Positions 1 to 55,778 of a stretch of DNA of 64,000 nucleotides are shown here, in pieces. The position numbers and the translations under genes are program-made. The stretch covers positions 65,226,646 through 65,290,645 of the forward strand of contig CM037585.1 in assembly GCA_021018995.1 (NCBI GenBank). The letters are read 5' to 3'. The notes under the pieces are model-generated. The model saw only the letters and a program-made list of their open reading frames with translations. It made no database searches and was not told the origin of the DNA. Each line of letters begins with the position of its first letter. Within the stretch, counting starts at the first letter, position 1. This DNA comes from Chloranthus sessilifolius. Taxonomy: Eukaryota; Streptophyta; Magnoliopsida; Chloranthales; Chloranthaceae.

Positions 1-1
1 T

Positions 2-22176: not shown

Positions 22177-22188
22177 ATCACCCCAACT
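22177..22188 (-). promoter_or_regulatory. El1 polypurine tract
   Basis: On the minus strand AGTTGGGGTGAT directly precedes the 3' LTR start TGTCACAACCC. Confidence 0.75.
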
Positions 22189-22508: not shown

Positions 22509-23755
22509 CTAATCCTCATCCTCTTCATAGTCGTCGTCGTCGTTGTAGTCATCCTCGCCATCATCATCGCCATCGTCCACCGTGACGGCTGTGGTACCCA
22601 CTGTGGCGCTCCTCGTAGTCGGGCCGGAGCTAGATGCTCCAAAAATAGCGTCCCTCATGGCACCTACGCGCTGCATGTAAGACTGCGGGTATGCCTGGCC
22701 CATGAGGTCTATGAGTAGCGCCTCCTGGAGCCTCTGTGCTCGATCTCCCTCCCTTCTTGTCAAGGATCTCCTGCATCATGCCCGTGTCGAGTGGGTATGG
22801 GCTGCGGTATCGAGTAGAGGAAGTAGTCGGTCTGCCGATTGCTTGATGGGTGGCTGATCGGGAGACTTGTCGGTCTCTCTTTGTCGGCTGGTTTGGAGGG
22901 TCTTAAGGTTTCGGCTCAATCTTGGGCAAGGTATGGGGCGACGTTGTCGGTGAGGAACAACTTCGTCCTCCAATCCTAAATCCTCCCTTCCCATTTCGCG
23001 AATCCAAAGTCGGAAATCAACCGAGCATATGGTAATCGGTTGATCGGTGCTGGAACAGCACCCCTTTCATTCCTTTTGTAGGCATGCGCCATGCCTTTTA
23101 TGACCACCATAGGTGCGTTGATCCACCTATTGTGAAATGCGGTATGTAGTGCTCGCAAAAACGCATCTCAGCGTTCTTGGTCATGGCCGGTTGGGTGCAA
23201 ATTCTTTTTGAAGATAATGTCTAAAAGCCACATGCGCGGCGGTAATTGTGATCGGGTGATGGATTGTCCCGAGGCGGTCCTGCCGCCAGTGATGTCGGAG
23301 ATTATCGTTGGGAAATCTACGTTCCCAGAAAAAGGTGGTAGGATGAGTGGGCTAGGGGTGTAGATGTGAGGACATTTCATGATTGAGGAAATGTCGGCAC
23401 ATCTGAAAATTAACTCATTACCATCGATGGTAACGAGTATGGCATCCTCATCAACGTTCAATTGTAGGGTCTGGTAAAATAATTTCACTAGCCTCGGGTA
23501 GTATCGATCCCCGAACGGCGTAAGTAGGGTCTTGAGCTGATTGTTGGTGATGAAGTCCGATGTCCACTGGGTGGACGCCGGATCTCCGAAACAAGAGGGG
23601 TGTATTTCCCACTCGGCTTCAAAAATTTTTGATCCCCACCAATCATCCAGTGTGATTACCCTAGAGGGTGGGTTTGATGGTTGTTGAGAGTTTTGTGTTG
23701 TGGTAAGCAAAGTCGCCATCCGTTTCTTTGGTTGGGGGTTCGGGCTTGAGGCCAT
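22509..23755 (-). pseudogene. El1 accessory protein (plant transposon protein family)
   Basis: ATG at 23755 follows a putative promoter (23953-24170). The N-terminus is short and basic (PQPKKRM). The core then shows WWGSKIFEAEW, YYPRLVKLFYQ, RTASGQSI, KKNLHPTGHD, an in-frame TGA at 23170-23168, and in the same frame FHNRW and LPYARLISDF to a stop near 22976. The remainder survives in other frames and ends in a strongly acidic Asp/Glu tail. It matches the El2 protein (WWAAKTFEVEY, YYPRLVRLF, LYPMRHD, MPYARLIS) and the E protein. Location is sense strand between pol and the 3' LTR, which is not standard for Tekay elements. Function unknown; basic start, acidic end and target-like arrays suggest a nuclear DNA-associated role (inference). 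Confidence 0.68.
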
Positions 23756-23952
23756 CTAGTATAATAATGCAAAAAGAAGGAAAAACCTTAGGAAATAGGT
23801 AGAGTTTACCTAGGAGAATCGTCTTAACGGATCGGATTGCTCAAATCCGTTTGGAATCGGAAGAAAATTGGTTGAAAACGGCTGCTCTAACCTTTTCCCC
23901 GATCGCCTTTCTTTTCTCTCGCTTGAAGATGAACAGACGCCCTGGTCTGTCA

Positions 23953-23960
23953 TATTTATA
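23953..23960 (-). promoter_or_regulatory. TATA box of the El1 accessory gene
   Basis: The minus strand reads ACTATAAATATGAC, 7 bp downstream of the palindrome array edge and about 200 bp upstream of the ATG at 23755. Confidence 0.65.
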
Positions 23961-23967
23961 GTTCTGC

Positions 23968-24170
23968 CTCGCTCGAGCGGTCATTGGCCCTCGCTCGAGC
24001 GAGAACAGAAATCATATTATTATATACTGTTACCTCGCTCGAGCGGTTATAAATCATCGCTCGAGCGGTCTACATACCTCGCTCGAGCGAGGATTCGTTA
24101 TCGCTCGGGCGAGAGGAGTATGATTGTATGTGGGCTCGCTCGAGCGGTCATAAGTGGTCGCTCGAGCGAG
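23968..24170 (-). repeat. El1 internal palindrome array, before the accessory gene
   Basis: Seven exact CGCTCGAGCG cores and one degenerate (CGCTCGGGCG) in 203 bp, in the same two flavours as in the LTR: CTCGCTCGAGCGAG and CTCGCTCGAGCGGTC. The spacers between units are not repeated. Confidence 0.85.
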
Positions 24171-24189
24171 ACCAGAAACATTTCTCTGG

Positions 24190-24192
<3 letters not shown>

Positions 24193-24223
<31 letters not shown>
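24193..24223 (-). repeat. 31-nt homopolymer (poly-A on the sense strand)
   Basis: A run of 31 T on plus (A on the element's sense strand) lies between the pol stop (24375) and the internal array. It may be a simple repeat, or the scar of a poly(A)-ended joint between pol and the accessory cassette. Confidence 0.7.
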
Positions 24224-24226
<3 letters not shown>

Positions 24227-24374
24227 CATTTAGTTTCAATTTATCACTAGTTTCATCAATTTAGAGTTCAACGAAAAAAATTTCTCAAACATTGTTTGAA
24301 ATCAATATATCAAAAGAAAACATACATAGTCTTCATAGTACCCGAAATTACATATTCTCAAACGAATGAAACCT

Positions 24375-27300
24375 TCAGTTTTCAAGTTCGAACAATTTAG
24401 GATATTGTTCTTTAACATCCGCCTCACGTTCCCATGTTGCCTCTTCGGCCGGATGGTTCTTCCATCGGACAAGCACTAAGGGAATTACTTTTGTTTGCAA
24501 CACCTGTTCCTTTTGATCTAAAATTTCTACGGGTTCTTCAATCATGGTCATATCTTCATGCATTTCGAATGATTGGCGCTCAAAGACGTGATCAGGGTCA
24601 TTGAGATATTTTCTAAGCATAGACACGTGGAACACGTTGTGTACCTGATCAAACAATGGTGGCAAACCAATGCGGTAGGCTACTTCTCCCACTCGACCCA
24701 GAACTTCAAACGGTCCAAGATAACGGGGACTTAGTTTCCCTCTCTTCCCAAATCTCATCACCCCCTTCATCGGTGATACTTTCACGAACCCATGTTCGCC
24801 CACTTTAATGTCTACACTAGTCCGCTTGATGTCAGCATAACTTTTCTGTCTGCTCTGAGCCGCTTTTAGTCTTTCCCTGATCATGCGGACAATGGCAGCG
24901 TTATCTTCAAGTAGCTCGGGTCCCAAAACGAATTTCTCCCCAGTTTCTTCCCAATTGATTGGCGACTTACATCGTCTTCCGTACAAGGCTTCATACGGTG
25001 CCATCCCAATGCTCGTCTGAAAACTATTATTATAAGCGAACTCAATCAATGGTAGATGTTGATCCCATGATCCTTGCAATTCTAACATACATGCCCTAAG
25101 CATGTCTTCAATGACTTGGTTGACCCTCTCAGTCTGTCCGTCTGTTTGTGGGTGAAACGCCGTACTGAAATCCAACTTAGTTCCCATTCCTTCTTGGAAT
25201 TTCCTCCAAAACTTTGATGTATATAATGGGTCTCGGTCTGAAACAATGCTACTTGGAATCCCATGTAGCCGAACGATCTCCTTCAACGCTAATCTTCATT
25301 GTGTACATCGTGTTGTACGGTAAGAAATGTGCCGACTTAGTTAATCGATCAACCACCACCCAAATGGCGTTATGCCTCCTTGCAGTTCGTGGTAACCCGA
25401 CTATGAAATCCATTGAGATAGATTCCCATTTCCATTCCGGTATGGGTAAGGGCTGTAATAGGCCTGCGGGGTGTCTATGATCGATTTTCACTTGTTGACA
25501 CGTCAAACATCGTGACACATACTCTGCCACATCTTGTTTCAAACCTCTTCACCTATAATTCTTTTTCGATCACGATACATCTTCGCTTTCCCGTGGATCG
25601 TGATAGCTTGACTGTGGGATTCATCAAGAATCGTCACGTAATTCGGCGTTGTCCGGAATGCAAAGCCGCCCTTTGAATGTTAAGGAACCGTCTTCCTTGA
25701 TCGAAAACTCAGAGGTCGTACCTTCTATTACATTTTGATGTATCCTTGTTAGAATCGGGTCTTTCATCTGTAGTTCTCGTATGTGTTCAAATATCACTGG
25801 CTTCACTGTTATGTTGGCTAAGAAGGATCCTGTGGCTTGTGGTTGTATGTCTGCGCCACACAATGCCAGAGCTTCCAACAACTTCCATCGATGTATACCC
25901 GAAATTAGTCTAGCCAGTTGGGCCGAACTCTTTCGACTCAAGGCGTCAGCCACTACGTTAGCTTTGCCTAGATGGTACTGTATAGAACAATCATAATCTT
26001 TGAGGAATTCCATCCACCTACGCTGCCTCATATTCAGTTCCTTCTGTGTAAACAGGTATCTGAGGCTTTTGTGGTCAGTGAAAATTTCAAATGTTTCTCC
26101 GTATAGATAATGTCGCCATATCTTTAATGCGAATATGACTGCTGCTAGCTCTAGATCGTGTGTTGGGTAGTTCCTTTCGTGCTCTTTCAACTGTCTGGAG
26201 CCGTAAGCTATCACCCTTTTATATTGATTTAGTACAACCCAACCTGCTATCGAAGCATCATCAGAATCGCAAATCCGCCAACTCGATGGAATGGCTAACA
26301 CTGGGGCTGAGGTGAGCCTCTTCTTGAGTTCTTGAAAACTCTTCTCACTCGCCTCACTCCACTCAAATCTTGAGTCCTTTCTTGTAAGTCTCGTAAGAGG
26401 TCCTGATATTTTTGAAAATCCTTCTGACGTCGATAATAACCACCGAGGAAACTTGAATGTACATCACGGTTTTTGGTTGTTCCTAGTTCACTACTGCCTC
26501 GATCTTAGCGGGATCTACAGTGACACCATGCTTGGAGACGACATGTCCCAGAAAGCTAACCTTTTCTAGCCAAAACTCACATTTGCTGAGCTTGGCGTAC
26601 AGCTGGTGTTGACGCAAGGTTTGTAGAGCGACACGTAAGTGTTCTTCATGCTCTGTTTTCGATTTTGAGTAGATTAGGATGTCATCAACAAATACTACCA
26701 CACAGGAGTCTAAGTGTGGTTTAAACACTCTATTCATCAAGTCCATAAACGCCGTGCGCATTCGTCAAATCCGAATGGCATCACTAAAATTCATAGTGTC
26801 CATATCGTGTTCAAAGCGAAGCCGTTTTACGAATGTCCTCGTACGACTCTTAACTGATGATAACCCGATCTTAGGTCGATCTTGGAAAAATATTTTGCAC
26901 CCTGCAATTGGTCGAATAAGTCATCTATCCTTGGCAACGGGTATCGATTCTTCACCGTGACTTTATTCAATTGGCGGTAGTCGATGCACAACCGCATCGA
27001 TCCATCTTTATTTTTCACGAACAACACTGGTGCTCCCCATGGAGACACGCTTGGTCGTATGAATCCCTTGTCCATGAGCTCTTGCAGTTGTTCTTTCAAT
27101 TCTTTCAACTCTGCAGGGGCCATTCTATAAGGTTCTTTTGAAACAGGTTCCGTTCCTGGTGCTAAGTCGATCGCAAATTCTACCTCCCTTTCTGGAGGTA
27201 ATCCTGGCAATTCTTCTGGGAATACATCTGGGAATTCTCGCACCACAGCTATGTCAGAGATAATATTCTTTTCTTCTTTATCCTCTTTCAAAAATGCCAA

Positions 27301-29330
27301 ATAACCACTACACCCTTTCCTGATTAAACGCTCGCTTCTTCTGACATGAGATATGAGTGGTACCTGAGTCGACCTCTCCCCTTGAAACCGAAACGATCTT
27401 CTCGTGTTAGGACGGAAAACAACAACTTTATCCTTACAGTCCACTGTTGCGCAATGTTGGGACAGCCAATCCATGCCAAGGATTACGTCGAATCCTTGCA
27501 TGTCCAACCATATTAAATTTGCGTCTAATTCGTGGACCGCGTGATCCCGAATGCTTACTACTACCGATTTGCAAACTAACTCAGTGTCCACTAATTCTCC
27601 TGTTGGGATGGACACTGATAACACAAAGTCCAGCGTTTTCGGAATAATTTTCATCCTTTTTGAAAATCTAGGGGTGATGAAAGAGTGGGTAGACCCTGGG
27701 TCTATCAGCACTCGCGCGTCATGTGCTACGTAGCACCCTTTCTCATAAATCTGTAATGTACCTACAATGCATGCATATACGTACATAACATATACTTAAT
27801 ACAAGAATTTTTCACTCTTAAGTTTAATAACAGTTATATAGATATTTATCCTAATGGAAAATTCATTCATTATCTAGAGTTGTATTGCAAACGAAATTCT
27901 TTATTTTAAAGGAGACCTCACCTTGGATAACGTCGTGTACACTCCCTGCTTCTTGGGCGGTAACTGCGTAGGCTCTCCCTCAAATAACAGGCTTTCGAGA
28001 TTGAATAGGTTGTGGCATGGAAGTTGGAGCCGTCTTTTCTTTGACTGCCTCAGGGAAATCTCTAATCATGTGGCCTATCTTGCCACACTTGAAACAGCCT
28101 CGCATTCCCTGCCTACAGTCGGTTGTTTTGTGGGACTTGCCACATTTTGCACAAGTTTCTCTTGGAAATGAATTAGCAGCTCTCGGAAAAACTTGTGGAG
28201 TTGTAGCCCTGCTGGAAAAAGTAGGACCTTGATACCTCATCGATCTCCCCGATGCCAGCAACGGATAATTTTGATGAGTCGGTTGTTGTGCAGCTCTCCC
28301 ATAACTTTGACCGAACGATCAAGCTTTACGATTTGGTGTTATAAACCTCGGTTTCTTATATGCCGATTCATAACCCCCTGTCCTGTTTAGATCGATGCTT
28401 TCTCTGCCTTGATGTTCCCTCTGACGGTATCGGTTATTATTTTCTTCCTCAATCACCAATGCCTTACTCATTACTTCTCCATAAGTTTTCAGCTGGAAGG
28501 GCACAACCCCTCCTCGTATGTCCGACCTTAAGCCCTGTTGGAACCTCTTCGCTTTCATCACGTCTGAGATTACGTAGTCTGGAGCGAAGCGAGCCAATCT
28601 CATGAATTCCACTTCATATTCTCTCACGGTCACTCTTCCCTGTGCTAGTTGTAAAAATTCGGTCTCCATCTGATTCCTCACAACTTCAGGAAAATATTGT
28701 TTATTGAATTCTTCTACAAATTCGTCCCAAGTCCACGGCACATCTGGAGTTTCTTGTGCTCTCGTCCGCGACACTGATTTCCACCAAGGTCCAGCTTCTC
28801 CATCTAACATGTATGCTGCCCAACGGACGCTCTCATCCTCCGTGCATGTTAGTACACTAAACACCTTCTCCATTTCTCCCAACCAGTTTTCGGCGGCCAT
28901 CGTGGTCTACACGCCTCAAAAGTTGGGAGGTCTCATTCTTCTGAACTCGGTGAATGTTGAAGCCACTGAGGGTGTAAGTCCTACTGGAGGGGTAGGTGTT
29001 CGTTGTGGTTCTGGTACTATATGCACTGCTAAGGACGCTGCTTGTTGTGCCATGGCAGTTGCCATGGTCTCCATTGTGTGCATCATTCTCTGGCGTTCTT
29101 CTCTTTCTTCATTTCTTTCTCTCACCCTATCTTGTTCCCTCTGATCTCGATCTTGCCTATCTAGATCTTGCCCCTCTGCTTGATTTTGGTTTCTCGCCAT
29201 TTGCTCTGAATCTCCTGTTTCCCAACGGCACTCTGTTTGCAGGTGAGATGAACCCATCTCCACTGCGCAAATTCCTATCATGGCCACCCTTGGGTCGGCC
29301 TCTCCCTCTAGGAAACATAACGGTCTGCAT
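24375..29330 (-). pseudogene. gag-pol: El1 gag-pol (Tekay-type), broken
   Basis: gag ATG at 29330; frameshift near 29230; Arg/Glu coiled coil; two in-frame stops (TGA, TAG) just before MAAENWLGEMEK; capsid motif GPWWKS; zinc knuckles CAKCGKSHKTTDC and CFKCGKIGHMIRDF, the second with its last Cys replaced by Phe. A 160-nt intron (27762-27921) then leads to protease ([12 protein letters not shown]), RT ([11 protein letters not shown], then a frameshift near 26830; [12 protein letters not shown]), RNase H ([19 protein letters not shown]), integrase ([35 protein letters not shown], with a small deletion near 25250) and a C-terminal chromodomain (VRWKNHPAEEATWE). It would supply the virus-like particle and the replication and integration enzymes; this copy cannot. 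Confidence 0.9.
27762..27921 (-). other. Putative spliceosomal intron between gag and protease (El1)
   Basis: The minus strand reads CCAAG|GTGAGG ... GCATTGTAG|GTACATT, 160 nt, AT-rich and full of stops. Splicing restores [13 protein letters not shown] across a phase-1 junction, the known gag-pro transition of this lineage (VVTGTL type). El2 has an intron at the same codon. Confidence 0.72.
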
Positions 29331-29401
29331 GAGAATTCTTAATCTCGTTAGCAGAAGTCCCTATATTCTGATGATATGATAGTCAGAACTATGGAAAGAA
29401 A

Positions 29402-29415
29402 GGCTTTGATACCAA
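29402..29415 (-). promoter_or_regulatory. El1 primer-binding site (tRNA-iMet)
   Basis: The minus strand TTGGTATCAAAGCC lies 1 nt inside the 5' LTR. It matches the usual iMet site TGGTATCAGAGCC with one change. Confidence 0.8.
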
Positions 29416-29416
29416 C

Positions 29417-31559
29417 TGTGACAGCCCAAATTTTGGCATCCCGAAATCCGTGCCATCTGCACGACCTTCAAGGCCGTGCCTTAAATTCATATCATAACTC
29501 GCCGATATATACAGCCAAACTGTAATTGAAGCACATGCGAACACTCCAAATAAAAATAAGAAGTTATAGGAGAGTTGATCCTACAAGGCTGTCCCTGTTC
29601 CATGCCAATTCATGGACATAAGGACACACCCAAAAGTTTAATGACAATTATTCTTCTTAAATAGTTTACCAAGAGACAGTATTTAAGCCTTCCAAATAAT
29701 GAGGTTCGATATATCATGTCATACACAGTACTCTCTCAACTCACTCTTAGGGTATGCAGCGGGTTTCCTAGAAGAATTCCTCAGGAGGAGGTTCTGTCTC
29801 TTCAGTGGGTACGAACTCCGATGCCCTTGGATTAACTTCACCTGAAGTCCTTGCCACCGCTAGTCCTTGACCTGTGACGATAGTCTAAGGTGAGCTACAT
29901 CCTAGTCTGTAGGGAAAACAAAAGAACATATAGATCATCCTTCACACATATGTCAAGAATTTAATAAAACATAAATTTTCAAGAAACATTTATGTACAAC
30001 AATTTGGATAATGTGAAAACTCAAAGGTTCCAATCACTACTTATCCTAGCTTTGTTTAATCTCTTTATAAGCTTGTTCGTGAACTTGGCCTAATCACTTA
30101 AATCTTAACTTAATTAATCCTCGAGCAATATAGCATCGAGCGATGGAATACCCGCCATCGCCGTAACTAGAGTTGTTAAGTGTATTCCCCGAATATCGCG
30201 AGCCCCTTCCTCATAGGCGGGGTCTATTCTCAAACTACATCCTCAGGATGTTATAATTGTACGGATTGTCCGTGCATCGGTCACGGATATCCTCGAAGTC
30301 AGTCAGGTATCCCGCCACGTCGGTGGGGTATTCTAATCAACCTTAAATAACAAAAGTATCAATGTGCTTTACATATAGTTATTCACCGTGATTGTGTTAA
30401 ATATATTACATTAGGCCTTATCATGTTATCTTTGTTTCTCTGTTTGTTTTCTTACGCATCCCTGGGATGCCCATGCTTCTATTTCACCTTTCTTTGATTT
30501 AACCACATTATCTTTCGTCCCCTGGGGACCTCAGGATTTTCCACATTGGAACACGCACACACACCCTTATCATGAGGATTTATGAAAAATATACTATTTA
30601 AAAGGACTATACTACACATATGAGTTCACAGAATAATGCACATGTTCGAGAGAATTCCCTACCTCGACGAATCTCAAAGCACGCTTGTCCTTAGAGGGTT
30701 AAAATGCATCAACCTACATTTAAAAAGAATTTTACTTTAGGATGCTCTAAGGTCTTTGGGGTGTAAGACACCCGAGTTTCTTATATTAGGAAACCAATAT
30801 TTGAGTGATCACCGGACCTCGCTCGCGCGGTCATTAGCCCTCGCTCGAGCGGTCACTTGACCTCGCTCGAGCGGTCTCTTGATCTCGCTCGAGCGGTTAA
30901 ATCGAGCTTTCGAATTTTTCTGTGGACCCTCGCTCGAGCGAGCTCCACTTTAGTTTTAGGGACCGCTCGAGCGAGCCCAGAGCCATATTTTTCTATATTC
31001 ATCCTCGCTCGAGCGAGCCTCTTTAGATCGCTCGAGCGAGGAACAATGATTTTGTCCCTCAATCAGATCGAGAATATGCTTCCACTCATCATTTACCCTT
31101 TATCTTATACAAGGAACCATTTAGCCAACCTCTTTCCTACTATTTAAAACCTTCCTAGGCATCTATCATGTCCTTAACGTACCTCTGACGATGAAACCGC
31201 ACCGGTCTGATTTATGATTTGAATATCTACTCGGTTATCCGGCCTCCCTGGTTCGTCCTCCCGTCATTTCCTCTGATCTCCTTTGCCGACCTAAGTCTCA
31301 ACGAACCCTAGTTCTCTACCAGGCTCTTTTCTTCTTTCTCTCTATATTCTCCTTCTCTCTATTTAGGTTAGAATAGATTTACGTAAGGGTTCCTCTCTCT
31401 CCTTTTCACTTTTATATCTAAAATTTTTGGGATATACTAGTGTGTCTCCCACGTACACACTTAAAGTATTTGGGTTGTTTTGGTCTCCTTGTGAAACACA
31501 TATACCTATGTGTGTATGCGTGCCGTGCACAAATCGTGAAAAAAATCTGGGTTGTGACA
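29417..31559 (-). repeat. El1 5' LTR
   Basis: 2143 bp, from sense start TGTCACAACCCAG at 31559 to GGCTGTCACA at 29417. The palindrome array lies 520-740 bp from the sense 5' end. TATA-like CTAATATAAG (30779-30788) lies about 30 bp downstream of the array. Confidence 0.88.
30818..31040 (-). repeat. El1 palindrome array, 5' LTR
   Basis: Seven exact CGCTCGAGCG cores plus one CGCTCGCGCG. It is followed in sense direction by the TATA-like CTAATATAAG. Confidence 0.85.
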
Positions 31560-42704: not shown

Positions 42705-45239
42705 TGTGATAGCCCCGGATTTCGGCACCCCGAAACCCGTGCCATCAGCACGATCATCTTGACCGTGCCCTTTGCTAAGCACGGAACACTGGTATATCAA
42801 GCATTGTAATAGAATAATAAATGAAATTGCGGAATTTAAATCTATATCAATCAACTCCCCAAAAGACAGTTCTACCCTCATGCCTCTGCATGAATGGAGA
42901 ACCGATCCGAACCATCGATGACAGCAATCATCACGGATGGTTCGTCCCAAAAGAATTATCCCAACTCCTTATATACATGGTTTTAACAAAATCAAGGCTT
43001 GACATACCGAGCCGTACAAAATCTCTCTAAAAGCCCTCAAAGCGGCACAACGGAGTCCTCTAGAAGAAGTCCTCAGGAGGTGGCTCCAACTCGTCATAGG
43101 CCGCAAGGTCTGACTCGCCGGGATCAGCGTCTCCTGAAGCCTCGGCAGCTGCTAGTAGTGAACCTGCGACGTATAGTCTATAGGGTGAGCTACATCCTAG
43201 CTCAATAGGGAACAAACATGGTTGAACATATAAATTATAACTCACATATATTCCATGATATGCCATGCATGATGTGTCTATGCAGTTATTGATGAAAACA
43301 GTTAAAAGCATTTCATTTTACTATTCATTACTTATGTTTTCATTTATTCATCAATGATGCTGAAAAGGCCTAAAGCAAAACTTAAACTTTCAACTTAAGT
43401 AATCCCCGAGCAATATAGTATCGAGCCCCGATGAGATACCCTTCATCGTCATCTATATAGATAGTTTTAACGTATTCCCTGGGAATACCATATAGTACCC
43501 AAGCCCCTTTCCCCTGGGGATTGGTGGCGGGGTTTCACTTGTCTCAATCCAACACCCCTAGGGTGTGCTTACTATGTACGGATAAGCCTCCACACTGGCC
43601 TACGGTTTCGCCGCCGTATCGGTCACGGATATCCTGCCGTGTCAGTCGTGGATATCCCACCACGTCGGTGGGGTAACCTATCAAACCTCAAATAAAAAAA
43701 ATATCGGTGCCTTACATATAGTTATTCACCGTGTAAGTGTGCTATCTTATATCAGTTAGGCCCTATCAAACATGATTCAAATTTTGGATACATCCCTGGG
43801 ATGTATCCATTTATTTGCATCACACCTGATGCTCTTGTCTCTTTACTTCTTCATCCCCTGGGGATGGCTCATTATGATTACTCTTACGAATGTCACACGC
43901 ACACACACTTTTCACAATTCTTAAGCAATAAAACATTTGAGTTGAATTCTATATCACTACATACATGCTCTTGTAAAATAAAGTACATGTTCAAGGTGTT
44001 CCCTACCTCAACTCTTCATTTGATCAATGCATCAAGGTCCCACGTGGCTCCTTGTGCACTAGTCCATACGTACCACCTATGGTACCACATAACAGGTGAA
44101 ACGCATCACAAAGGATGCAATAAAGAAGGTCTAATACCCTCCAAGAATCTTAAAGTCAAACTCAAAAGTCAACATAACTTATCTCAGTCGATTAATGGAA
44201 CTCCAAAATCGATTAATCGAATCTGATTCGATTAATCGATTTCCAAAATCGATTAATCGAAAGTCAATATCAATTAATCGATTCTCAAATCGATTAATCG
44301 AGATTCTCATTCGATTAATCGAATCTTAATTCGATTAATCAAAATTCTCTGTTCAGCCAAGTCGATTCTCAATTCGAGTAATCGAGTTCCTAAAATCGAT
44401 TAATCGATCCCAAATCGATTAATCAAAAATTGAAATCGATTAATCGAAATCCCATTTCGATTAGTCGATTTTCCCAAGTCTTTTCCTCCAGCCCCCTGGG
44501 GTCCACTGGAGGTTCCCAGTCGATTAATCGATACCTAAATCGATTAATCGAAATCCAAGGTCGATTAATCGAACTCCAATTCGATTAATCGAAATTGGGG
44601 TTCACTGACTTTTCAACTTCCTGGCCAATTTCGATTAATCAAAACCCAATTTCGATTAATCAAAATTGTCAGATTCAGCCCTTTTTGAGCTGTTCTTCCC
44701 CATCTTTTTCCATACTTTTTCCTCTATTTTTCTAAACCATTATCCTATGATTTAAACCATTTTCAACTACAATTTAGACTCTACCATCTATGCATCTTAT
44801 TCACAAAATTTTACCTTGAATCAATCTCAAATTGATTTCAAATCTATGGTTGGAAAGGCTAGGGTTCCAGCTTTGCTTCTAGCGGATCCCTCGCGTCGAA
44901 TCCGACGTTGTTGCAATCTCCCTTCCTCAACTAGCATTTACTCCTCTCTTTACTTCTCTCTCTCTCTTCTTTACTCTCCTTCAACAACCATCAAACTCTT
45001 GCTTTTAGGGCTATTAAACCCTTTTATCCCTTTCCTCACTTGTGTGTTGAGCACATACACCGCGGTAGGTGTATGCGATTTCACATTCACAACACACACC
45101 ACATAGGCATTCAACCCATCACATCTTGTCCGTTCATCACATTCTATGCTAATTATCGAACTCCTAATTGGGCAAACTTGTGACCAATTGGGCACAAATC
45201 CCGAGGTCATAGTTTAGCGTGATTTTTCGGGCTATTACA
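42705..45239 (-). repeat. El2 3' LTR
   Basis: 2535 bp, sense TGTAATAGCCCG ... GGCTATCACA. It is more decayed in the palindrome array than the 5' LTR. Confidence 0.88.
44188..44663 (-). repeat. El2 palindrome array, 3' LTR
   Basis: Eleven exact TCGATTAATCGA and about eight units with one change, mostly TCGA to TCAA (a CpG transition). Equivalent to 54394-54869. Confidence 0.88.
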
Positions 45240-45252
45240 TCCTCCCCACCTT
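45240..45252 (-). promoter_or_regulatory. El2 polypurine tract
   Basis: Minus-strand AAGGTGGGGAGGA before TGTAATAGCCC. Confidence 0.78.
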
Positions 45253-45585
45253 GAGAATTTTCGTCCTCGAAAATAACCCAAGGTTTATCTGTCTAGGTCT
45301 CTCCCCCCCCCACACTCTCAGGTGAGGTGGTCGAGTAGACCTAGACGCATTCAGATAGTTACAATTTTGGCATAGAATTGAAAGTTGACTAATTGAAACA
45401 ATTTATATCAAAAATTGTGATTTGTATTATAATTGAAAATTTTATAATGCCAAATAAATTGGCGTACAAAAGAAATTTACAGGTACACAAGCAAAATGCA
45501 AAAAGAAATACAAGACTCAGACAGTCCCCTCGTCAGGCTGGTTGGGTGCGACAGGAGCTGGTGTGTCTGTTGGAGCTGACGGTGG
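45253..45585 (-). other. El2 accessory gene 3' UTR
   Basis: About 330 bp without a gene. Near the PPT the minus strand carries TTTTCGAGGACGAAAATTC, as in El1. A C-run lies at 45303-45312. Confidence 0.5.
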
Positions 45586-47063
45586 CTACGGTGGTGGCGA
45601 CTGCGCTGGCTGGGTGGTCGGCTGTGGCTGCGGCGTCTCGGTCGGCGGAGCGGAGGTAGATGTGGAAGGAACCGCGTCTGCAGTGGTGGGATGGAAGACG
45701 GGTCCTCGGTGGAAGGCGGTGCGTCCAGCAGTCCACTCCTCCTCCTGTGCGAGGTAACGGCGGTAGTCGGTAGGATAGATGTGGCGGAGGGTGTGAAATA
45801 GGAGGAAGTCCATCCTCCGGTTCATCCTTTCGTTGTTGGCCTCCATACGGGCCAACACCTCCTCGATGGTCGGCCCAGATGATGCGGCGCGCCGGCGGTA
45901 GGATGAGGTGGGTGTCGCGGGCGCGGAGTGGGCAGGTGGCGTCGGTGAGGCTGCGGTGTGAGAGGGAACCCTCTCCACGGATGGCTCGGCGGGGATAGGG
46001 TGTGCTCCACCCACGGGTGGGTCCTGCTGAGGTGGTGGGGGTGGTGGCGGTGCTACCGCTGCTGCTGGGGCTGGAGCGGGACCCGGAGCCGGTAGGGTCC
46101 GCTTTAGCAGATTGTAGCTACGGGTCCATGAAGACTTCGAAAACGTCTTCACGCGATCCGTAGCCCTCACCTCGTGAGGCGAGATGCTGTAGGAGGGGTC
46201 ATTGGAGTAACACTCCAACATGCTCGAGATGAGCCGAGCATATGGCATCTTCTCCTTGGGCCGCATGTTGCCCTTCATCAGCTTCCCTTTGATGTACCTC
46301 ATCCCTTCTAGGATGACCATGGTAGCATCAAACCATCGGCCACAGAAGGCCGCATAAAGTGCCTGTTGCACTTTGTCCACGCGCTCGGTGTCGTGGCGCA
46401 TTGGGTAGAGGTTGCACTTGATTATTGAATCAAGCATCCACATGTAGTGTGGAAAGTCAACCCTCTTAATGGAGGATCCCAACCCCTTTTTCCTGTTGGT
46501 CATACGGGTCATGATTTCTTCGAATCGAGGGTCCTCCTCGAAGGGTGGGAATAGGGTAGTCTCGGGGGTGAAATCGAGGTAACATTCGAGTACCTAGTGT
46601 ATGTGGTGGCGGGTTATTATGTACTCCCGACCCTCAATGGTGGTCTTAACCACGTCGTCGGTAGGGAGAATAATCTAACTAACCTAGGGTAGTAGGAACC
46701 CCGGATTGGTTTGAGAAGGTTGCCGAGGCCGGCATTGTTAAGATAGTTTCGAGCCCATTGGGTCTCGCCCGGCAAATCGGGATTTGTGAATAGGGTAGGG
46801 TCGATGATGTATTCGACCTCAAAGGTCTTGGCCGCCCACCATTCGTTTGGTTGCACCACATTAGTGGGTGGTGGGGGCATTGGGGTCGATTCGCGGGAAG
46901 ACTCGCGCGTAGATGCGCTCGTCGAACCGGAGGTGGTCTCCGATGCCGACGGTGATGGAGTTCTCACCGGCGATGGGGTAGGGGGTGGTGGCGCGGCGTT
47001 CTTACGCCTAACCGGGAGTTTAGAAGTCGCCTTCTTTGAAGATAATCGGGTTTTGGGCGGCAT
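45586..47063 (-). pseudogene. El2 accessory protein (plant transposon protein family), nearly intact
   Basis: ATG at 47063. The N-terminus is basic and NLS-like (KTRLSSKKATSKLPVRRK), followed by a Ser/Pro-rich stretch. Core motifs: EWWAAKTFEVEY, YYPRLVRLF; one frameshift near 46665; one in-frame TAG near 46590; then YMWMLDSIIKCNLYPMRHD, FCGRWFDATMVILEGM, MPYARLIS. A proline-rich linker and a short amphipathic stretch (EEVLARMEANNERMNRRMDF) precede a Pro/Gln/Thr-rich tail. About 480 residues in total with only two lesions, fewer than its gag-pol. Homologous to the El1 and E proteins. No enzyme motif; I infer a nuclear protein of unknown function. Confidence 0.7.
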
Positions 47064-47272
47064 TTTTAGAAAACTAGGGTTTTTCTAATTCAAATTGAAG
47101 GGAAAAGCAAAATTTTAGGGTTTACCGTGGTTTTAGATGCGAAAATGGGTGTGAATCGCCGGAAAATCCAACCCTAGACCGCTTGGTTGGATGGAGAAGA
47201 AGGAGAAGTTGAAGCGCCCAAAAATTCGAAAGCTCAAATGATTTCGAATGGCAAAGAAAATCCCCAAATTTC

Positions 47273-47280
47273 AATATATA
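47273..47280 (-). promoter_or_regulatory. TATA box of the El2 accessory gene
   Basis: The minus strand reads GGCCTATATATTGAAA, 9 bp downstream of the array edge and about 210 bp before the ATG. The same geometry is seen in El1. Confidence 0.65.
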
Positions 47281-47289
47281 GGCCCCGTC

Positions 47290-48010
47290 TCGATTAATCG
47301 AAATTTAGAATCGATTAATCGAGATTCAAAACTAGGTTAAGCCGCGTAAAATCGATTAATCGATTAATCAAAAGCCAAATTCGATTAATCGAAACCATTT
47401 CGATTAATCGAAATCGTATCTGTTTAAAATTTTAAATTTTTGAGCTCACTGGCGCGAGCCAGTCGATTAATCGAAATCCATTTCGATTAATCAAAATTCC
47501 AAAATTGATTAATCGAATTTCACTTCGATTAATCGAAATCGTGTAGTAACTTCTTAATTTCCAGAATTCCTTAAGTAATCGATTACTCGAAATCCATTCC
47601 GATTAATCGAAATTTCAAAATTGATTAATCGAAATTATCTTCGATTAATCGAAATTGTCTATCTGCACTCAATTTCTTCCAAGTCTCTTTAGTAAATCGA
47701 TTAGTCGAGTTTCCAGTTCGATTATTCGAAATCTCAAAACCGATTCATTAGTTTACTCTCAATTGTTCTTACATTCCCAGTTTGTTCGATTAATCGAACC
47801 TGCAGTTTGATTAATCGAATTCCCAAAATCGATCAATCTATCCCAAATCGATTAATCGAAATTATAATTCGATCAATCGAAATTGCATCCTATGTATATT
47901 CCAACTCTCATTTTCATTTCCAGACACTGGCACATGCCAGTCGACTAATCGAACAAAATCGATTAATCGAAATTCCAAATCGATTAATCGATTTGAAATT
48001 TGATTAATCA
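47290..48010 (-). repeat. El2 internal palindrome array, before the accessory gene
   Basis: About 12 exact TCGATTAATCGA and a similar number of one- or two-base variants (TTGATTAATCGA, TCGATCAATCGA, TCGACTAATCGA) in 720 bp, with non-repetitive spacers of roughly 5-40 bp. Confidence 0.88.
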
Positions 48011-48200
48011 GTTTTGCCCAATTTCTGCAGATTTTCTATTTCTTTGGTTCTTTGATTTCTTTTGGTAGTTTATGACCTCAAGTGGTTCATAGTTCCATAG
48101 AGTTGCATACACTTGATCATGTACTCTTGCTTGATCTCTAGATCCAAACTTTTGGTTCCTCTATCATGCTCATGTCCTAACATCTCTATAGGTTGCTTTC

Positions 48201-51200
48201 CTAACACATGAGCGGATCATTCACGTACACGAGCATCGATATGTGGAAGACATTATGTACTCGATCAAACAGCGGTGGTAAACCAATGCGATATGCAACT
48301 TCACCTACTCGTCCCAAAATTTCAAATGGTCCAACATAACGTGGACTTAACTTCCCTCTCTTGCCAAATCTCATTACACCTTTCATAGGTGACACTTTCA
48401 CAAACACATGCTCGCCCACTTTGTAGTCAACACTAGTCTGCTTCATATCGGTATTAACTTTTACGTCTACTACATCTTTGTCTTCAACCTTTCTCGATAA
48501 TTGAACAACGGTGGCGTTGTCTTCAAGTAGTTTGGTCCTAATACAAATTTCTCACTGTTTCCTCCCAATTGAGGGTGACTTGCATCGTCGTCCATCTGAG
48601 CTTCATACGGTGCCATGCCAATGCTCGTTTAGCTGTTGTTATACGAACTTCGAGCATCGGTAGATACTCATCCAGTATCCTTGCATATCAAGCATGCATA
48701 CGCTCGAGCATGTCTTCTATTACTTAGTTCACTCGCTCTCGCCCATCGGTTTGAGGATGGAAAAATTTGAACTAAAGTCTAGTCGTGTTCCCATTCCTTC
48801 TTGAAATTTCTTCCAAAACTTGGGCGTATATAGTGGATCACGATGCGAAACTATCTTGCTTGGAATCCCATGTAATCTTACAATCTCCTTCATGTATAAA
48901 TCTGCGATCTTCTGCTTTGTATGTAGTATTATTGTCGGCAAAAGTCTTGTTGATTTGGTCAATCGGTCTCTGACGACCCAAATGGCATTGTGTCTCTTGG
49001 CGATGCAGAGGTAATCCAACAATGAAGTCCATTGATATCGATTCCCACTTCCATTCTGGTATTGGTAAAGGTTGCAATAGTCCAGCAGGATGTCTATGAT
49101 CAACCTTCACTTGTTGACAAGTCAAACACCGTGACACGTACTCGGCCACGTCTTGTTTCAGTCCTCTCCACCAGTAGTTCTTTTTCAAATCTTGGTACAT
49201 TTTGGTGCTACCAGGGTGGATAGCATAATTTGACTTATGGGCCTCATCAAGAATCGTTCGTCTTAGATCGGCATTGTCCGGAATGCAGAGACGGCCTTTA
49301 AACAACAACGAACCGTCTTCTTTTACTGAGAAGTCCGACCTAATGCCTTCACTCACGTCTTGATGAATTTTCGTTAATGCCGGATCTTTCATCTGTAGAT
49401 CGTGGATATGCTCAAATATCACTGGCCTTACTGATATGTTAGCCAAAAAGGATCCGGTGTCCTTTGACTCAATGTTCGCATCATAGAATGCCAGGTCTTC
49501 CAATAATTTCCATCGGTGCATACCCAAAATCAAACAAGCTAACTGAGCTGAACCTTTTCGACTCAATGCATCAGCTACAACATTCGCCTTGCCAGGATGG
49601 TATTGTATGGAGCAATCATAATCCTTGAGGAATTCCATCCACCTGCGCTGTCTCATGTTGAGCTCTTTCTGTGTAAAGAGATATCGGAGGCTCTTATGAT
49701 CGGTGAAAATTTCAAAAGTCTCGCCATACAAGTAATGTCTCTAAATCTTCAGCGCAAAAATGACTGCTGCTAGTTCCAAGTCATGAGTCGGGTAATTTTT
49801 CTCGTGTTCTTTCAGCTGTCTTGATCCGTAAGCTATCACCTTCTTGTGTTGGTTGAGCACACAACCAAGGCCAGTCAGACACGTCATTGTGCAGATCCTC
49901 CATTGCTGAAGGAATCGCTAGCACTGGAGCCGAAGTGAGTCTCATTTTGAGTTCTTGAAAACTCTTCTCGCATGCCTCACTCCACTCAAACCTTGAATCT
50001 TTTCGTGTCAGCTTTGTGAGAGGTCCCGATATCTTTGAAAACCCCTCGACGAAATGTCGATAATAGCCTGCTAAGCCCAGAAAACATCAAACATCGGTCA
50101 CTGTCTTTGGTTGCTCCCATTTAACTATTGCTTCTATCTTTGCTGGATCTACAGTGACACCATGCTTTGAGACAACATGTCCCAAAAAGCTAACTTCTTC
50201 CAACCAAAACTCACACTTGCTGAGTTTGGCGTACAATTGGTGTTCACGTAGCGTCTGTAGAGCAATCCTCAAATGTTCTTCGTGTTCCGTCTTGGATTTG
50301 GAGTATATCAAAATATCATCAACAAATACTACGACGCAGGAGTCTAAGTGTGGTTTAAACACTCGGTTCATCAGATCCATAAACGACGCCGGAGCATTCG
50401 TCAATCCAAACGGCATCACAAGGAATTCATAGTGTCCATATCGTGTCCGGAAAGCTGTCTTCTGGGCAAAGGGTAGCGGTTCTTCACAGTGAGTTTGTTC
50501 AATTGTCGATAGTCAATGCATAGCCGCATTGACCCATCCTTTTTCTTGACAAACAAGACCGGTGCTCCCCATGGAGATACACTTGGTCTAACAAACCCCT
50601 TGTCCATAAGTTCTTGTAGTTGTTCCTTCAACTCCTTTAACTCAGCAGGAGCCATTCTATAAGGTGCTTTTGAAATAGGCTCCGTTCCTGGTGCTAAGTT
50701 AATGGCGAATTCTACTTCTCTTTCTGGTGGTAATCCAGGCAATTCTTCTGGAAACACGTCGGCGAAGTCTCGCACAACTGCTATCTCAGAAATGACGTTC
50801 TTTTCTTCCTTGTCCTCCTTTAAGAAAGCTAAGTATCCACTGCAACCCTTTCTGATCATTTTCTCGGCCCTTACTGCTGAAATCAGTGGCACAGATGACG
50901 ACCTCACTCCTTGAAACCGAAATGATCGTCTTGTGTTGGGTCTGAAAATGACTACCTTGTTCTTGCAATCGACGGTTGCACAATGCTGCGCCAACCAGTC
51001 CATGCCAAGGATCACATCAAACCCTTGCATGTCTAACAGTATCAACTTTGCTTCTAGTTCGTGCACCTCTAAGTCTCGAACTGCTACAATGATGGATTTG
51101 CATGCTAACTCCGTGTCTACTAACTCTCCAGTTGGAATAGACACAGATAGGACGAAATCCAACGTCTCTGGAACAATCTTCATCTTCTTGGCGAAACGTG

Positions 51201-52847
51201 GAGTGACGAATGAGTGGGTAGACCCTGGGTCTATCAACACTCGAGCGTCATATCCACCGAAGCATCCTTTTTCATATATGTTTAAAGTACCTATAGTGTA
51301 CATACATACATACAATAATTTACACATCAATTTACACTCTTAATTCACATACAGCTTTTTGTATTGAGAAAAGAATCTATACAATTTCTAATGCATGCTC
51401 CTTCTCTATCTAAAATTTTAATGAAATGAAAATTTTCTTTAATTTTAACGAGTCTCACCTTGGATGACGTCATGCACGTTCCCTGCTTCCTGAGCAGTGA
51501 CTGCATAGGCTCTCCCCTGAACGATCGGCTTCCTTGCTTGAATGGGTCGTGGTGCTGCAACTGAAACCGTCTTTCTCTTATCCGTCTCGGGGCAATCCTT
51601 GATCAAGTGGCCCACCTTGCCACATCGGAAACAACCCCTAGTTCCCAATCTACAATCCACCGTCCTATGAGGCTTGCCACACTTTGCGCAAGTCTCCAGG
51701 TCTCGAAAAGAAGACGAGAACCCTGTGTGATAGTGGCGCCAGTAGACATGGCAGGGCTCTCATAGCGAAAAGGTCTTCCCGACGCAAGTAACGGAAACCT
51801 CTGTTGGTGTTGTTGTTGCGCCGGTCTTCCGAAACCCCCTTGGAACTGTGGTCTCTGATTTTGGGCTACGAACCTCGGCTTTTTGTTCACCGGTTCGTAG
51901 GCCCCCGTCCTTCCTTGTTCATTTCCTCCTCTCTGCTGCTCCCTCTGTCTATATCTATTTGTATTTTCCTCTTCGACCACCAGTGCTTTACTCATGACCT
52001 CTTCATAGGTCCTCAGTTGAAATGGAGCTACGCCTCCCCTAACCTCAGGCTTCAAACCTTGCTGAAACCTCTTGGATTTCATCACTTCGGTAGCGACGTA
52101 ATCCGGAGCAAAACGGGCAAGTCGTAGAAACTCTACCCCATATTCTCTCACTGTCATTCTCCCTTGCACTAATTGTAAAAATTGTATCTCTAATTGGTTC
52201 CTCACCACTTCTGGAAAATATTGTTTGTTGAACTCCTCAACAAACTCCTCCCAAGTCCAAGGCAACTCTAGGGTCTCCTGAGTCCGAGTTCATATCACGG
52301 ACTTCCACCAAGGCCCAGCCTCCCCATCCAACATGTAAGCTGCCCATTTCACACTCTCATCTTCCGTGCATGTCAGCACGCTAAAGACTTTCTCCATCTC
52401 CATCAGCCAGTTCTCAGCGGCCATTGTGTCTGCCTGCCCAGAAAATGAAGGAGGTCTCATCCTCCTAAACTCTGTAAAAGATGAGGGCACAGGCAACACA
52501 GGTCCTACAGGTGGTGTAGGTGGCTGTTGTTCTCTTGACGCATGAGCTACAAAGGATGCGGCTTGTTGTGCCATGGCAGCTGCCATAGTCTCCATAGTGT
52601 GCATCATCCTTTGTCGCTCCTCTCTATCTTCTTGTCTTTCTCTCAATCTTTCTTGCTCTCTTAGATCTTGATCCTGATGATCTCGATCCTCTTCATCACG
52701 TTGTCTACTACTACTGCCCCCTGGGGCCTCAGTACCTCCTAAAGGCACTCTATTAGTAGGAGAGATGTAACCATCTCCACTACGTAGACTCCTCTGTTGG
52801 ACTCCCCTTGGTCGGCCTCTTCCTCTAGATGAGATTTGCGGCTGCAT
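48201..52847 (-). pseudogene. gag-pol: El2 gag-pol (Tekay-type), broken
   Basis: gag ATG at 52847; RGRGRPRG start; Arg/Glu coiled coil; GPWWKSVI followed by an in-frame TGA (52290); PWTWEEFVEEFNKQYF; a frameshift near 51705 around the first zinc knuckle; the second knuckle CFRCGKVGHLIKDC is intact. After the intron (51291-51458): protease [12 protein letters not shown] and RT start. A deletion near 50470 removes the segment that should hold the first catalytic Asp ([10 protein letters not shown] in El1). RT continues with [10 protein letters not shown]; RNase [11 protein letters not shown]; integrase [17 protein letters not shown]; then deletions and frameshifts around 48500-48850. It stops at SMLVYVNDPLMC; the chromodomain seen in El1 is absent here. 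Confidence 0.88.
51291..51458 (-). other. Putative spliceosomal intron between gag and protease (El2)
   Basis: Minus-strand CCAAG|GTGAGAC ... ACACTATAG|GTACTTT, 168 nt. Splicing gives [13 protein letters not shown]. Same codon, same phase and same donor as El1, with diverged interior. Confidence 0.72.
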
Positions 52848-52923
52848 TTGAAACCAAAGTTTCGTTAGCAGAAGCCCCTATGTTCTGACCCAAAGAATAA
52901 TTGTCAGAATTGCTAAAAGAATT

Positions 52924-52937
52924 AACTCTGATACCAA
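52924..52937 (-). promoter_or_regulatory. El2 primer-binding site (tRNA-iMet)
   Basis: Minus-strand TTGGTATCAGAGTT, 1 nt inside the 5' LTR; 11 nt match the iMet site TGGTATCAGAG. Confidence 0.82.
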
Positions 52938-53678
52938 CTGTGACAGCCCCGGATTTCGGCACCCCGAAACCCGTGCCATCAGCACGATCATCTTGACCGT
53001 GCCCTTTGCTAAGCACGGAACACTGGTATATCAAGCATTGTAATAGAATAATAAACGAAATTGCAGAATTTAAATCTATATCAATCAACTCCCCAAAAGA
53101 CAGTTCTACCCTCATGCCTCTGCATGAATGGAGAACCGATCCGAACCATCGATGACAGCAATCATCACGGATGGTTCGTCCCAAAAGAATTATCCCAACT
53201 CCTTATATACATGGTTTTAACAAAATCAAGGCTTGACATACCAAGCCGTACAAAATCTCTCTAAAAGCCCTCAAAGCGGCACAACGGAGTCCTCTAGAAG
53301 AGGTCCTCGGAGGTAAGGTGACTCACGGGATCAGCGTCTCCTGAAGCCTCGGCAGCTGCTAGTAGTGGACCTGCAACGTATAGTCTATAGGGTGAGCTAC
53401 ATCCTAGCTCAATAGGGAACAAACACGGTTGAACATATAAATTATAACTCACATATATTCCATGAAATGCCATGCATGATGTGTCTATGCAGTTATTGAT
53501 GAAAACAGTTAAAAGCATTTCATTTTACTGTTCATTACTTATGTTTTCATTTATTCATCAATGATGCTGAAAAGGCCTAAAGCAAAACTTAAACTTTCAA
53601 CTTAAGTAATCCCCGAGCAATATAGCATCGAGCCCCGATGAGATACCCTTCATGGTCATCTATATAGATAGTTTTAAC

Positions 53679-54072
53679 GTATTCCCTGGGAATACCATAT
53701 AGTACAGAAGCCCCTTTCCCCTGGGGATTGGTGGTGGGGTTTCACTTGTCTCAATCCAACACCCCTGGGGTGTGCTTACTATGTACTGATAAGCCTCCGC
53801 ATTGGCCTACGGTTTCGCCGCCGTATCGGTCACGGATATCCTGCCGTGTCAGTCGTGGATATCCCACCACGTTGGTGGGGTAACCTATCAAACCTTAAAT
53901 AACAAAAATATTGGTGCCTTACATATAGTTATTCACCGTGTAAGTGTGCTATCTTATATCAGTTAGGCCCTATCAAACATGATTCAATCCTGGATACATC
54001 CCTGGGATGTATCCATTTACTTGCATCACACCTGATGCTCTTGTCTCTTTACTTCTTCATCCCCTGGGGATG
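53679..54072 (-). repeat. Series of CCCTGGG-centred palindromes in El2 LTR
   Basis: 53679-53695 GTATTCCCTGGGAATAC; 53759-53773 ACACCCCTGGGGTGT; 53991-54015 with 12-bp perfect arms around CCC-T-GGG; 54058-54072 CATCCCCTGGGGATG. Each has different arms, but the arms match perfectly. El1 has an analogous series. Confidence 0.75.
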
Positions 54073-54393
54073 GCTCATTATGATTACTCTTACGAATGTC
54101 ACACGCACACACACTATTCACAATTCTTAAGCAATAAAACATTTGAGTTGAATTCTATATCACTACATACATGCTCTTGTAAAATAAAGTACATGTTCAA
54201 GGTGTTCCCTACCTCAAGTCTTCATTTGATCAATGCATCAAGGTCCCACGTGGCTCCTTGTGCACTAGTCCATACGTACCACCTATGGTACCACATAACA
54301 GGTGAAACGCATCCCAAAGGATGCAATAAAGAAGGTCTAAGACCCTCTAAGAATCTTAAAGTCAAACTCAAAAGCCAACATAACTTATCTCAG

Positions 54394-54869
54394 TCGATTA
54401 ATCGAACTCCAAAATCGATTAATCGAATCTGATTCGATTAATCGATTTCCAAAATCGATTAATCGAAAGTCAATATCGATTAATCGATTCTCAAATCGAT
54501 TAATCGAGATTCTCATTCGATTAATCGAATCTTAATTCGATTAATCGAAATTCTCTGTTCAGCCAAGTCGATTCTCAATTCGAGTAATCGAGTTCCTAAA
54601 ATCGATTAATCGATCCCAAATCGATTAATCGAAAATTGAAATCGATTAATCGAAATCCCATTTCGATTAGTCGATTTTCCCAAGTCTTTTCCTCCAGCCC
54701 CCTGGGGTCCACTGGAGGTTCCCAGTCGATTAATCGATACCTAAATCGATTAATCGAAATCCAAGGTCGATTAATCGAACTCCAATTCGATTAATCGAAA
54801 TCGGGGTTCACTGACTTTTCAACTTCCTGGCCAATTTTGATTAATTGAAACCCAATTTCGATTAATCGA
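54394..54869 (-). repeat. El2 palindrome array, 5' LTR
   Basis: Sixteen exact TCGATTAATCGA plus variants (TCGAGTAATCGA, TCGATTAGTCGA, TTGATTAATTGA). It is split by a CCTCCAG...CTGGAGG inverted repeat at 54691-54718. Confidence 0.9.
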
Positions 54870-55778
54870 AATTGTCAGATTCAGCCCTTTTCAAGCTGTT
54901 CTTCCCCATCTTTTTCCACACTTTTTCCTCTATTTTTCTAAACCATTATCCTATGATTTAAACCATTTTCAACTACAATTTAAACTCTACCATCTATGCA
55001 TCTTATTCACAAAATTTTACCTTGAATCAATCTCAAATTGATTTCAAATCTATGGTTGGAAAGGCTAGGGTTCCAGCTTTGCTTCTAGCGGATCCCTCGC
55101 GTCGAATCCGACATTTATTGCTCGAATCTCCCTTCCTCAACTAGCATTTACTCCTCTCTTTACTTCTCTCTCTCTCTTCTTTACTCTCCTTCAACAACCA
55201 TCAAACTCTTGCTTTTAGGGCTATTAAACCCTTTTATCCCTTTCCTCACTTGTGTGTTGAGCACATACACCGCGGTAGGTGTATGCGATTTCACATTCAC
55301 AACACACACCACATAGGCATTCAACCCATCACATCTCGCCCGTTCATCACATTCTATGCTAATTATCGAACTCCTAATTGGTCAAACTTGTGACCAATCG
55401 GGCACGGATCCCGAGGTCATAGTTTAGCGTGATTTTTCAGGCTATTACAGTATACCACCATGGTGTCATATCAATCTTTGGCTCAACTATCATTCTTTGC
55501 TTGAATTCTCTCTTCTTAGCACAAAAGGCATGGACTTTACGTTAAGTTGCACAAATTATTACTAATCTACAAAACAAGCTAAACAAGAGTTATTAATCTG
55601 CTTCAAGGTTCAGCAAAGGCTAGGTTAAGAGGTAAAAAGTGGTACTTTCAGTGAATAACAACCACCCAAGCCTATAAGCCTATGCCTTGACACGTGAACC
55701 ATTCCCCTTCTCTATAAAACCAGCCTTCACCTTCTCAAAATCTTATCTCTTTCGTCTTCCTTTCATACCCTAACCCTA

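Follow-up and report, generated by a model that had tools for sequence, protein, structure and literature searches.

Palindromic word arrays at the long terminal repeats and the accessory-gene promoter of Ty3 chromovirus elements in Chloranthus sessilifolius

Introduction

In the Sireviruses, which belong to the Ty1/copia superfamily, palindromic CpG-bearing words of 10 to 20 bp are described both in the long terminal repeats (LTRs) and upstream of an ENV-like gene (Bousios et al. 2010, PMC2829016; for this and the other papers cited, our statements refer to the sections consulted). The words differ by family, a CGG-CCG core is common among them with the exception of Tnd-1, and four elements without the ENV-like gene are also without the second array (PMC2829016). 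The VANC proteins of the Arabidopsis VANDAL elements remove methylation and bind to tandem motifs that are specific to each family (PMC5735166, PMC10398659). Retand elements, which are Ty3 elements of non-chromovirus type, carry repeats together with a putative DNA-binding gene (PMC11963269), and the Tekay and Athila elements of sunflower carry additional open reading frames (ORFs) (PMC11728184). Here, we describe El2, a Ty3 chromovirus-type retrotransposon in a 64,000-nucleotide stretch of the Chloranthus sessilifolius genome (positions 65,226,646 to 65,290,645 of contig CM037585.1, assembly GCA_021018995.1; below, the window), in which one palindromic word is repeated in both LTRs and ahead of an accessory gene, and compare it with El1, in the same window, and with a third accessory group, ElC.

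Results

The features of El2 are as follows.

42705..55449, minus strand: El2, LTR retrotransposon of the Ty3 chromovirus type with two LTRs; target site duplication (TSD) GTATA
54394..54869, no strand: array in the 5' LTR, 16 exact TCGATTAATCGA, 19 at up to two mismatches
44188..44663, no strand: array in the 3' LTR, 11 exact TCGATTAATCGA (44209-44592), 19 at up to two mismatches
47290..47991, no strand: internal array ahead of the accessory gene, with 12 exact copies and 24 at up to two mismatches
47273..47280, minus strand: TATA box TATATATT of the accessory gene, 9 bp past the last word
46617..47063, minus strand: accessory gene, first open piece from the ATG, frame broken afterwards
45586..46593, minus strand: accessory gene, second open piece in a different frame, with a proline-rich tail
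48201..52877, minus strand: gag, protease, reverse transcriptase (RT), RNase H and integrase pieces
52939..55449, minus strand: 5' LTR, 2511 bp
42705..45239, minus strand: 3' LTR, 2535 bp, with 2.6% substitutions relative to the 5' LTR

The 39 exact copies of TCGATTAATCGA in the window all lie inside El2, and their distribution over the two LTRs and the internal array (16, 11 and 12) bears out the counts of 16, 11 and about 12 in the first-pass annotation. The word was absent from all 200 order-1 Markov sequences of the length and composition of El2, and no 12-bp palindrome occurred more than twice in any of the 200. When the window was scanned for perfect palindromes (8, 10 or 12 bp long, built from at least three different letters and present in at least four copies within 800 bp), all words found belonged to or overlapped those of El1 and El2. 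The last word of the internal array is followed by 9 bp (GACGGGGCC) and then the TATA box, and the accessory ATG (47063-47061) lies 226 bp past that word, in agreement with the 9 bp and approximately 230 bp proposed earlier.

El1 was the element used for comparison, with the following features.

20016..31559, minus strand: El1, with LTRs at 29417-31559 and 20016-22176; TSD GTTTC
30820..31038, no strand: array in the 5' LTR, 7 exact CGCTCGAGCG, 8 at up to one mismatch
21503..21655, no strand: array in the 3' LTR, 5 exact CGCTCGAGCG
23970..24168, no strand: internal array, 7 exact CGCTCGAGCG, 8 at up to one mismatch
23168..23755, minus strand: accessory gene to the in-frame stop, with a weak, sub-cut-off Transposase_32 match

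The internal array of El1 is likewise followed by 9 bp (AGGCAGAAC) and a TATA box (TATAAATA), and the accessory ATG is found at 23755, 214 bp past the end of the array. The arrays sit at a similar depth in the LTRs (580 to 1055 bp in El2 and 521 to 739 bp in El1). Since the distances from the internal array to the TATA box and ATG match as well, the layout is common to the two elements and the word has been swapped at corresponding positions, which upholds the earlier claim that El2 repeats the two-site layout of El1 with a different word. Downstream of the array, the LTRs are homologous (60% over 1363 bp). So, as had also been claimed, are the accessory pieces, which share 43% identity over 68 amino acids (E value of 7e-19; 35 to 39% by tblastn). 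The gaps between words cluster near 20 to 22 bp, or about two helical turns. The LTR arrays of El1 and El2 have no adjoining TATA box in the sequence read, this being a feature of the internal arrays only. Just upstream of the El1 internal array there is a run of 31 A on the minus strand (24193-24223), as if RNA-derived copying had brought in the El1 accessory module.

The coding pieces of El2 follow the Ty3 order (gag, protease, RT, RNase H, integrase), and the order of the domains (RVP_2, RT, RNase H and then integrase) is that of Ty3 and not of Ty1/copia. The El1 integrase has a chromodomain at its C-terminus (PF00385, E value of 2.3e-6, 27.9 bits with a cut-off of 25.1); the end of the El2 integrase, where the domain would sit, is decayed. 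El2 inserted midway between the two arms of an inverted repeat (CACCATGGTGTATA at one side and GTATACCACCATGG at the other; 42691-42704 and 55450-55463).

The genome searched was the assembly of the window itself, 2.17 Gb. The El2 word was present in 241,617 copies, compared to 55 for the reversed control and about 230 predicted from the base composition of the window; for the El1 word, the corresponding numbers were 52,187, 918 and about 479. A first look with the accessory proteins gave 40,683 (El1 piece), 31,412 (El2 piece) and 30,342 (ElC piece) candidates, totals that are loose and may overlap, and 150 were scored per query. Stop-free accessory frames, counted by eye, were found in at least 40 of the 150 scored El1-query rows (400 amino acids or longer) and in at least 40 of the 150 scored El2-query rows (490 amino acids or longer). 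Among eight random genome stretches, one held an accessory gene, and this was an El2 relative.

Promoters were fetched for 11 of the 150 El1-type rows (all at 88% identity, the lowest listed) and 9 of the 150 El2-type rows (90 to 95%). All 11 El1-type promoters carried CGCTCGAGCG (2 to 10 exact copies) and none the El2 word, while all 9 El2-type promoters carried CGATTAATCG (11 to 18 exact copies) and none the El1 word, in each case at up to one mismatch. The 3' LTRs of 8 of these 20 copies had the matching word in 4/4 El1-type and 4/4 El2-type cases and the other word in none. The distance from the word to the TATA box was 9 bp in 10 of the 11 El1-type promoters, the remaining one (L044) being without a TATA box in range, and in all 9 El2-type promoters, as well as in El2, L013 and L031. 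The El2-type distances were read by eye from the segments because automated counting starts at the 10-bp core and gave the last TATA of a TATATATA run in five rows.

ElC (L014, L015 and L027) has a diverged accessory gene, with 44 to 47% identity to that of El1 and 30 to 36% to that of El2. Its promoter carries GCTCGCGCGAGC-like words, the last one 8 bp ahead of TATATAAG, and the same kind of word is present, decayed, in both LTRs. Ten further promoters, taken from 150 rows ranging from 100% down to 54% identity, were added to that of L015, and in all 11 of these ElC-type promoters, two or more sites, overlapping in some cases, came within three mismatches of CTCGCTCGCGCGAG. By arithmetic for even base composition, approximately 0.05 such sites are expected per promoter. 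The El2 word TCGATTAATCGA was absent at up to two mismatches from all 11, and the exact El1 14-mer was present in 4 (L067-L070). A word-like stretch 8 bp before TATATAAGG was seen by eye in 5 of the 10 new promoters (L064, L066, L070, L071 and L073), and this pair was not found by eye in the other 5.

The accessory protein is constrained by purifying selection within the El2 family, and between families it has diverged far faster than pol. The ratio of nonsynonymous to synonymous substitutions (dN/dS) of the accessory gene was 0.04 to 0.21 in six comparisons within the El2 family (El2 against L011, L013 and L031). Synonymous comparisons between families are mostly saturated, and we therefore compared dN alone. 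Between El1 and El2-type copies, dN was 0.62 to 0.71 for the accessory gene (0.65 to 0.71 for L013 and L031), 0.10 to 0.12 for protease-RT and 0.13 to 0.20 for gag. Integrase dN was 0.058 for El1 versus L013 and 0.061 for El1 versus L031, with misfitting values for L011 (0.097, over 64 codons) and for El2 itself (0.37, in a decayed frame). In El2-family promoters, the conservation of words and spacers was 0.79/0.63, 0.95/0.84 and 0.87/0.66, respectively, with the word columns picked by matching in one copy, which somewhat favours the words, and gap columns excluded. In El1 and El2, CpG transitions after insertion affected 4 of 49 sites in words and 31 of 141 elsewhere (pooled P = 0.033, excluding 4 TG/CA pairs and the 11 CpG pairs that showed other changes). 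The low CpG decay inside the words is only suggestive of protection.

The El1 accessory piece gave a weak match to Transposase_32 (PF20167; E value of 0.0034, 17.7 bits with a cut-off of 45), and Pfam gave no such match for the El2 pieces. No match to DUF1985 or DUF287 was obtained at E values up to 10 for the El1 piece and the two El2 pieces. The El2 accessory piece, whole or as residues 1 to 145, had no relatives in the protein database, which is perhaps poor in plants, and viral contigs contained no relative of the El1 piece. One viral contig (L001, 4990-5060) has three spaced TCGATTAATCGA-like palindromes, two of them exact and adjacent, and was set aside as unrelated because its DNA is GC rich and unlike that of retrotransposons.

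A further element in the window carries a related array:

19829-20015 and 31560-34727 (end approximate), plus strand: El3, solo LTR split by the insertion of El1, flanked by GAAAC on both sides

El3 shares approximately 57% identity with the El2 LTR over 930 bp, array included, and its own array, at 32076-32553, consists of altered, decayed TCGATTAATCGA. Of the 11 sites within one or two mismatches of TCGATTAATCGA outside El1 and El2, 9 are found there. Allowing one mismatch in a scan for palindromes of 10 bp likewise returned the El2 word seven times near 32076-32553, together with words of A and T only and five copies of GGCTATAGCC in 6001-7000, the site of a 246-bp tandem repeat. Apart from GGCTATAGCC, no dense short-palindrome array was seen in positions 1 to 9000. 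A third accessory-like frame at 2-1129 (plus strand), 32% identical to the El1 protein, belongs to a different element, and its own promoter falls outside the window; going by a polypurine-like stretch near 4620, this element is perhaps Athila/Tat-like. A distant integrase remnant (28% to El1) lies at 62363-62728 on the minus strand. Elsewhere in the genome, a ATCGGCCGAT array (L021, G000:C1:1744213-1744432) lies near frames that by eye resemble a Mutator-type transposase, so that this genome may also hold a VANDAL-like system, and a TCAATCGATTGA array, whose word is similar to the Tnd-1 Sirevirus motif, lies in a stretch without a frame of 120 amino acids or more (L022, G000:C1:1757677-1758020).

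Discussion

El2, El1 and ElC each have one word at both LTRs and at the accessory promoter, and the tie between word and gene is established by this anatomy. We consider the accessory protein the likely reader of the palindromic word, which would lead to autoactivation and to activation or unsilencing across the family. The best reading of the system, which we favour by a modest degree, is a VANC-like protein, encoded by the element and specific for a sequence, that acts as an (auto)activator or antisilencer. It is favoured by the match of word to accessory type, the near-constant 9 bp to the TATA box, the better conservation of words than of spacers, the constraint on the gene and its fast divergence between families, the many long open frames and the word spacing of about two helical turns, and VANC with its tandem motifs gives a precedent for the mechanism (PMC5735166). 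We infer the accessory protein as the binder, binding as a dimer, use of the promoter and an antisilencing outcome. In El2, the additional gene, which lies between pol and the 3' LTR, would be transcribed from its own TATA promoter, and its product most likely binds the palindromic word, probably with one dimer on each palindrome and with cooperativity over the array. At the internal array, binding would activate the promoter of the protein's own gene or keep it open; at the LTR array, it would have the element activated or unsilenced and, since the word is common to the family, all other copies too. Sister families with diverged proteins could rely on other words, which would keep the families apart.

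Several observations weigh against this reading. The accessory protein is without a recognizable DNA-binding domain in the El1 and El2 pieces scanned, the El1 piece has no relative in the PDB, and its structure model, from a four-row alignment, was unusable (pLDDT of 37.7). The accessory frames of El1 and El2 are themselves broken, although, judging by the stop-free frames among the scored rows, numerous copies have the gene open. Agreement between word and accessory type within a family is expected from descent. Out of 17 stretches picked for the El2 word, 13 had exact words and only 3 an accessory homologue, possibly because some elements are solo or cut or run past the end of the stretch. 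In L011 of the El2 family (G000:C1:25600-25730), the integrase end, the array, the promoter and the start of the gene are deleted, while most of the accessory gene is kept. Taken per element, the difference in CpG decay gave P values of 0.20 (El2) and 0.06 (El1). Finally, the words of El1 and the ElC type belong to a common CTCGCTCG[A/C]GCGAG-like class, with proteins that are only about 38 to 46% identical over the piece compared, and over that piece El1 is not clearly closer than El2 to the ElC-type protein.

The El1/ElC word class has thus outlasted a large protein change, and the word does not switch at every protein divergence. The accessory groups number three and the word classes two, so that the correspondence is not one to one, and the idea that word similarity simply tracks protein identity is not upheld by the comparison of El1, El2 and the ElC type. 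This weakens a strict one-protein-one-word picture, and a slower, stepwise change fits. The coevolution of protein and target word suggested by the first-pass annotation consequently stands in part: the word matched the accessory type in 20/20 promoters and 8/8 LTRs of the El1- and El2-type copies fetched, and the homologous protein diverges fast, but El1 and the ElC type have kept one word class.

The main rival to the accessory protein as the reader is a host factor. The arrays would then be enhancers for host transcription factors, a different one for each family, and the accessory protein would have another job, such as movement or suppression of RNA silencing. Repeated LTR palindromes upstream of TATA boxes have been described as cis-activators, stress factors were considered by the Sirevirus authors (PMC2829016), and the extra ORFs of grass Tekay elements have been likened to double-stranded RNA-binding proteins (PMC11728184). 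By itself, however, a host factor leaves unexplained both the second array at the accessory promoter, with its fixed 9-bp gap in both families, and the fast divergence of the accessory protein alone, and we regard this explanation as rather unlikely. A role in silencing or chromatin independent of the accessory protein, with CpG-rich repeats drawing small RNAs, phasing nucleosomes or insulating, would suit the word spacing near 21 bp, but a selfish element should not retain a word if it attracts silencing, the word has been conserved where the spacers have changed, and its position beside the TATA box is precise, making such a role improbable. That the arrays are functionless products of repeat slippage and gene conversion is highly improbable: tandem arrays do grow and shrink, and the El1 3' LTR has 5 words where the 5' LTR has 8 (one mismatched), but each family has the same word at two separate sites, words are kept as spacers diverge, the TATA distance is fixed, and 241,617 copies stand against 55 for the control, even if copy number alone also reflects amplification.

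Returning to the accessory protein as the reader, we put forward tentatively the broader idea that Ty3 chromovirus elements encode a family-specific self-recognition protein that binds palindromic words in its own promoter and in the LTRs, a VANC-like antisilencing switch of separate origin that may have helped very abundant families to spread in a 2.2-Gb genome, with the Sirevirus motifs being the same thing in a third lineage. If the protein does bind its own word, plant LTR retrotransposons would have sequence-specific activators or antisilencers; VANC, TnpA and MURA, the plant examples named in the literature consulted, are all from DNA transposons. Each word-protein pair would then be a candidate tool for steering epigenetic state, and word swaps could probe the means by which elements escape cross-activation. 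Binding of this kind would also suggest an explanation for the Sirevirus palindromes, a point left open in the 2010 paper (PMC2829016).

Among known systems, the VANDAL elements share with those described here a fast-evolving, element-encoded protein and family-specific tandem motifs in non-coding DNA that differ per family. Such dense family-specific arrays in non-coding parts of the element were found here. VANDALs are, however, DNA transposons, and their DUF1985 and DUF287 domains are not found in the El1 and El2 pieces. Grande elements are said to carry an accessory gene with its own promoter in the 3' internal region, antisense to gag-pol and encoding a nuclear protein. The VANC21 motif is a non-palindromic 9-mer, and binding and demethylation have been demonstrated for VANC (PMC5735166, PMC10398659). 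In Retand, the gene is antisense to gag-pol and has another domain (PF04195), and the sections consulted describe no palindromic word and no matching LTR array (PMC11963269). The additional ORF of sunflower Athila partly matches Transposase_32, as that of El1 weakly does, whereas the ORF of sunflower Tekay is at the 5' side and has no Pfam match, and no word arrays are described in those sections (PMC11728184). The Sireviruses resemble El1 and El2 in having a palindromic word in the LTR and upstream of an extra gene, and since they have this layout in another superfamily, the two-site layout is not new. They differ in being Ty1/copia elements with an ENV-like gene, El1 and El2 being Ty3, and in the CGG-CCG core, which TCGATTAATCGA and CTCGCTCGAGCGAG lack; as readers of the words, their authors proposed stress factors rather than a protein of the element itself (PMC2829016). 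In the literature consulted, which is mostly without subscription papers, we found no Ty3 element whose LTR and accessory promoter both carry the same palindromic word, Retand being the nearest. A Ty3 element of this kind would be a new variant of a published layout.

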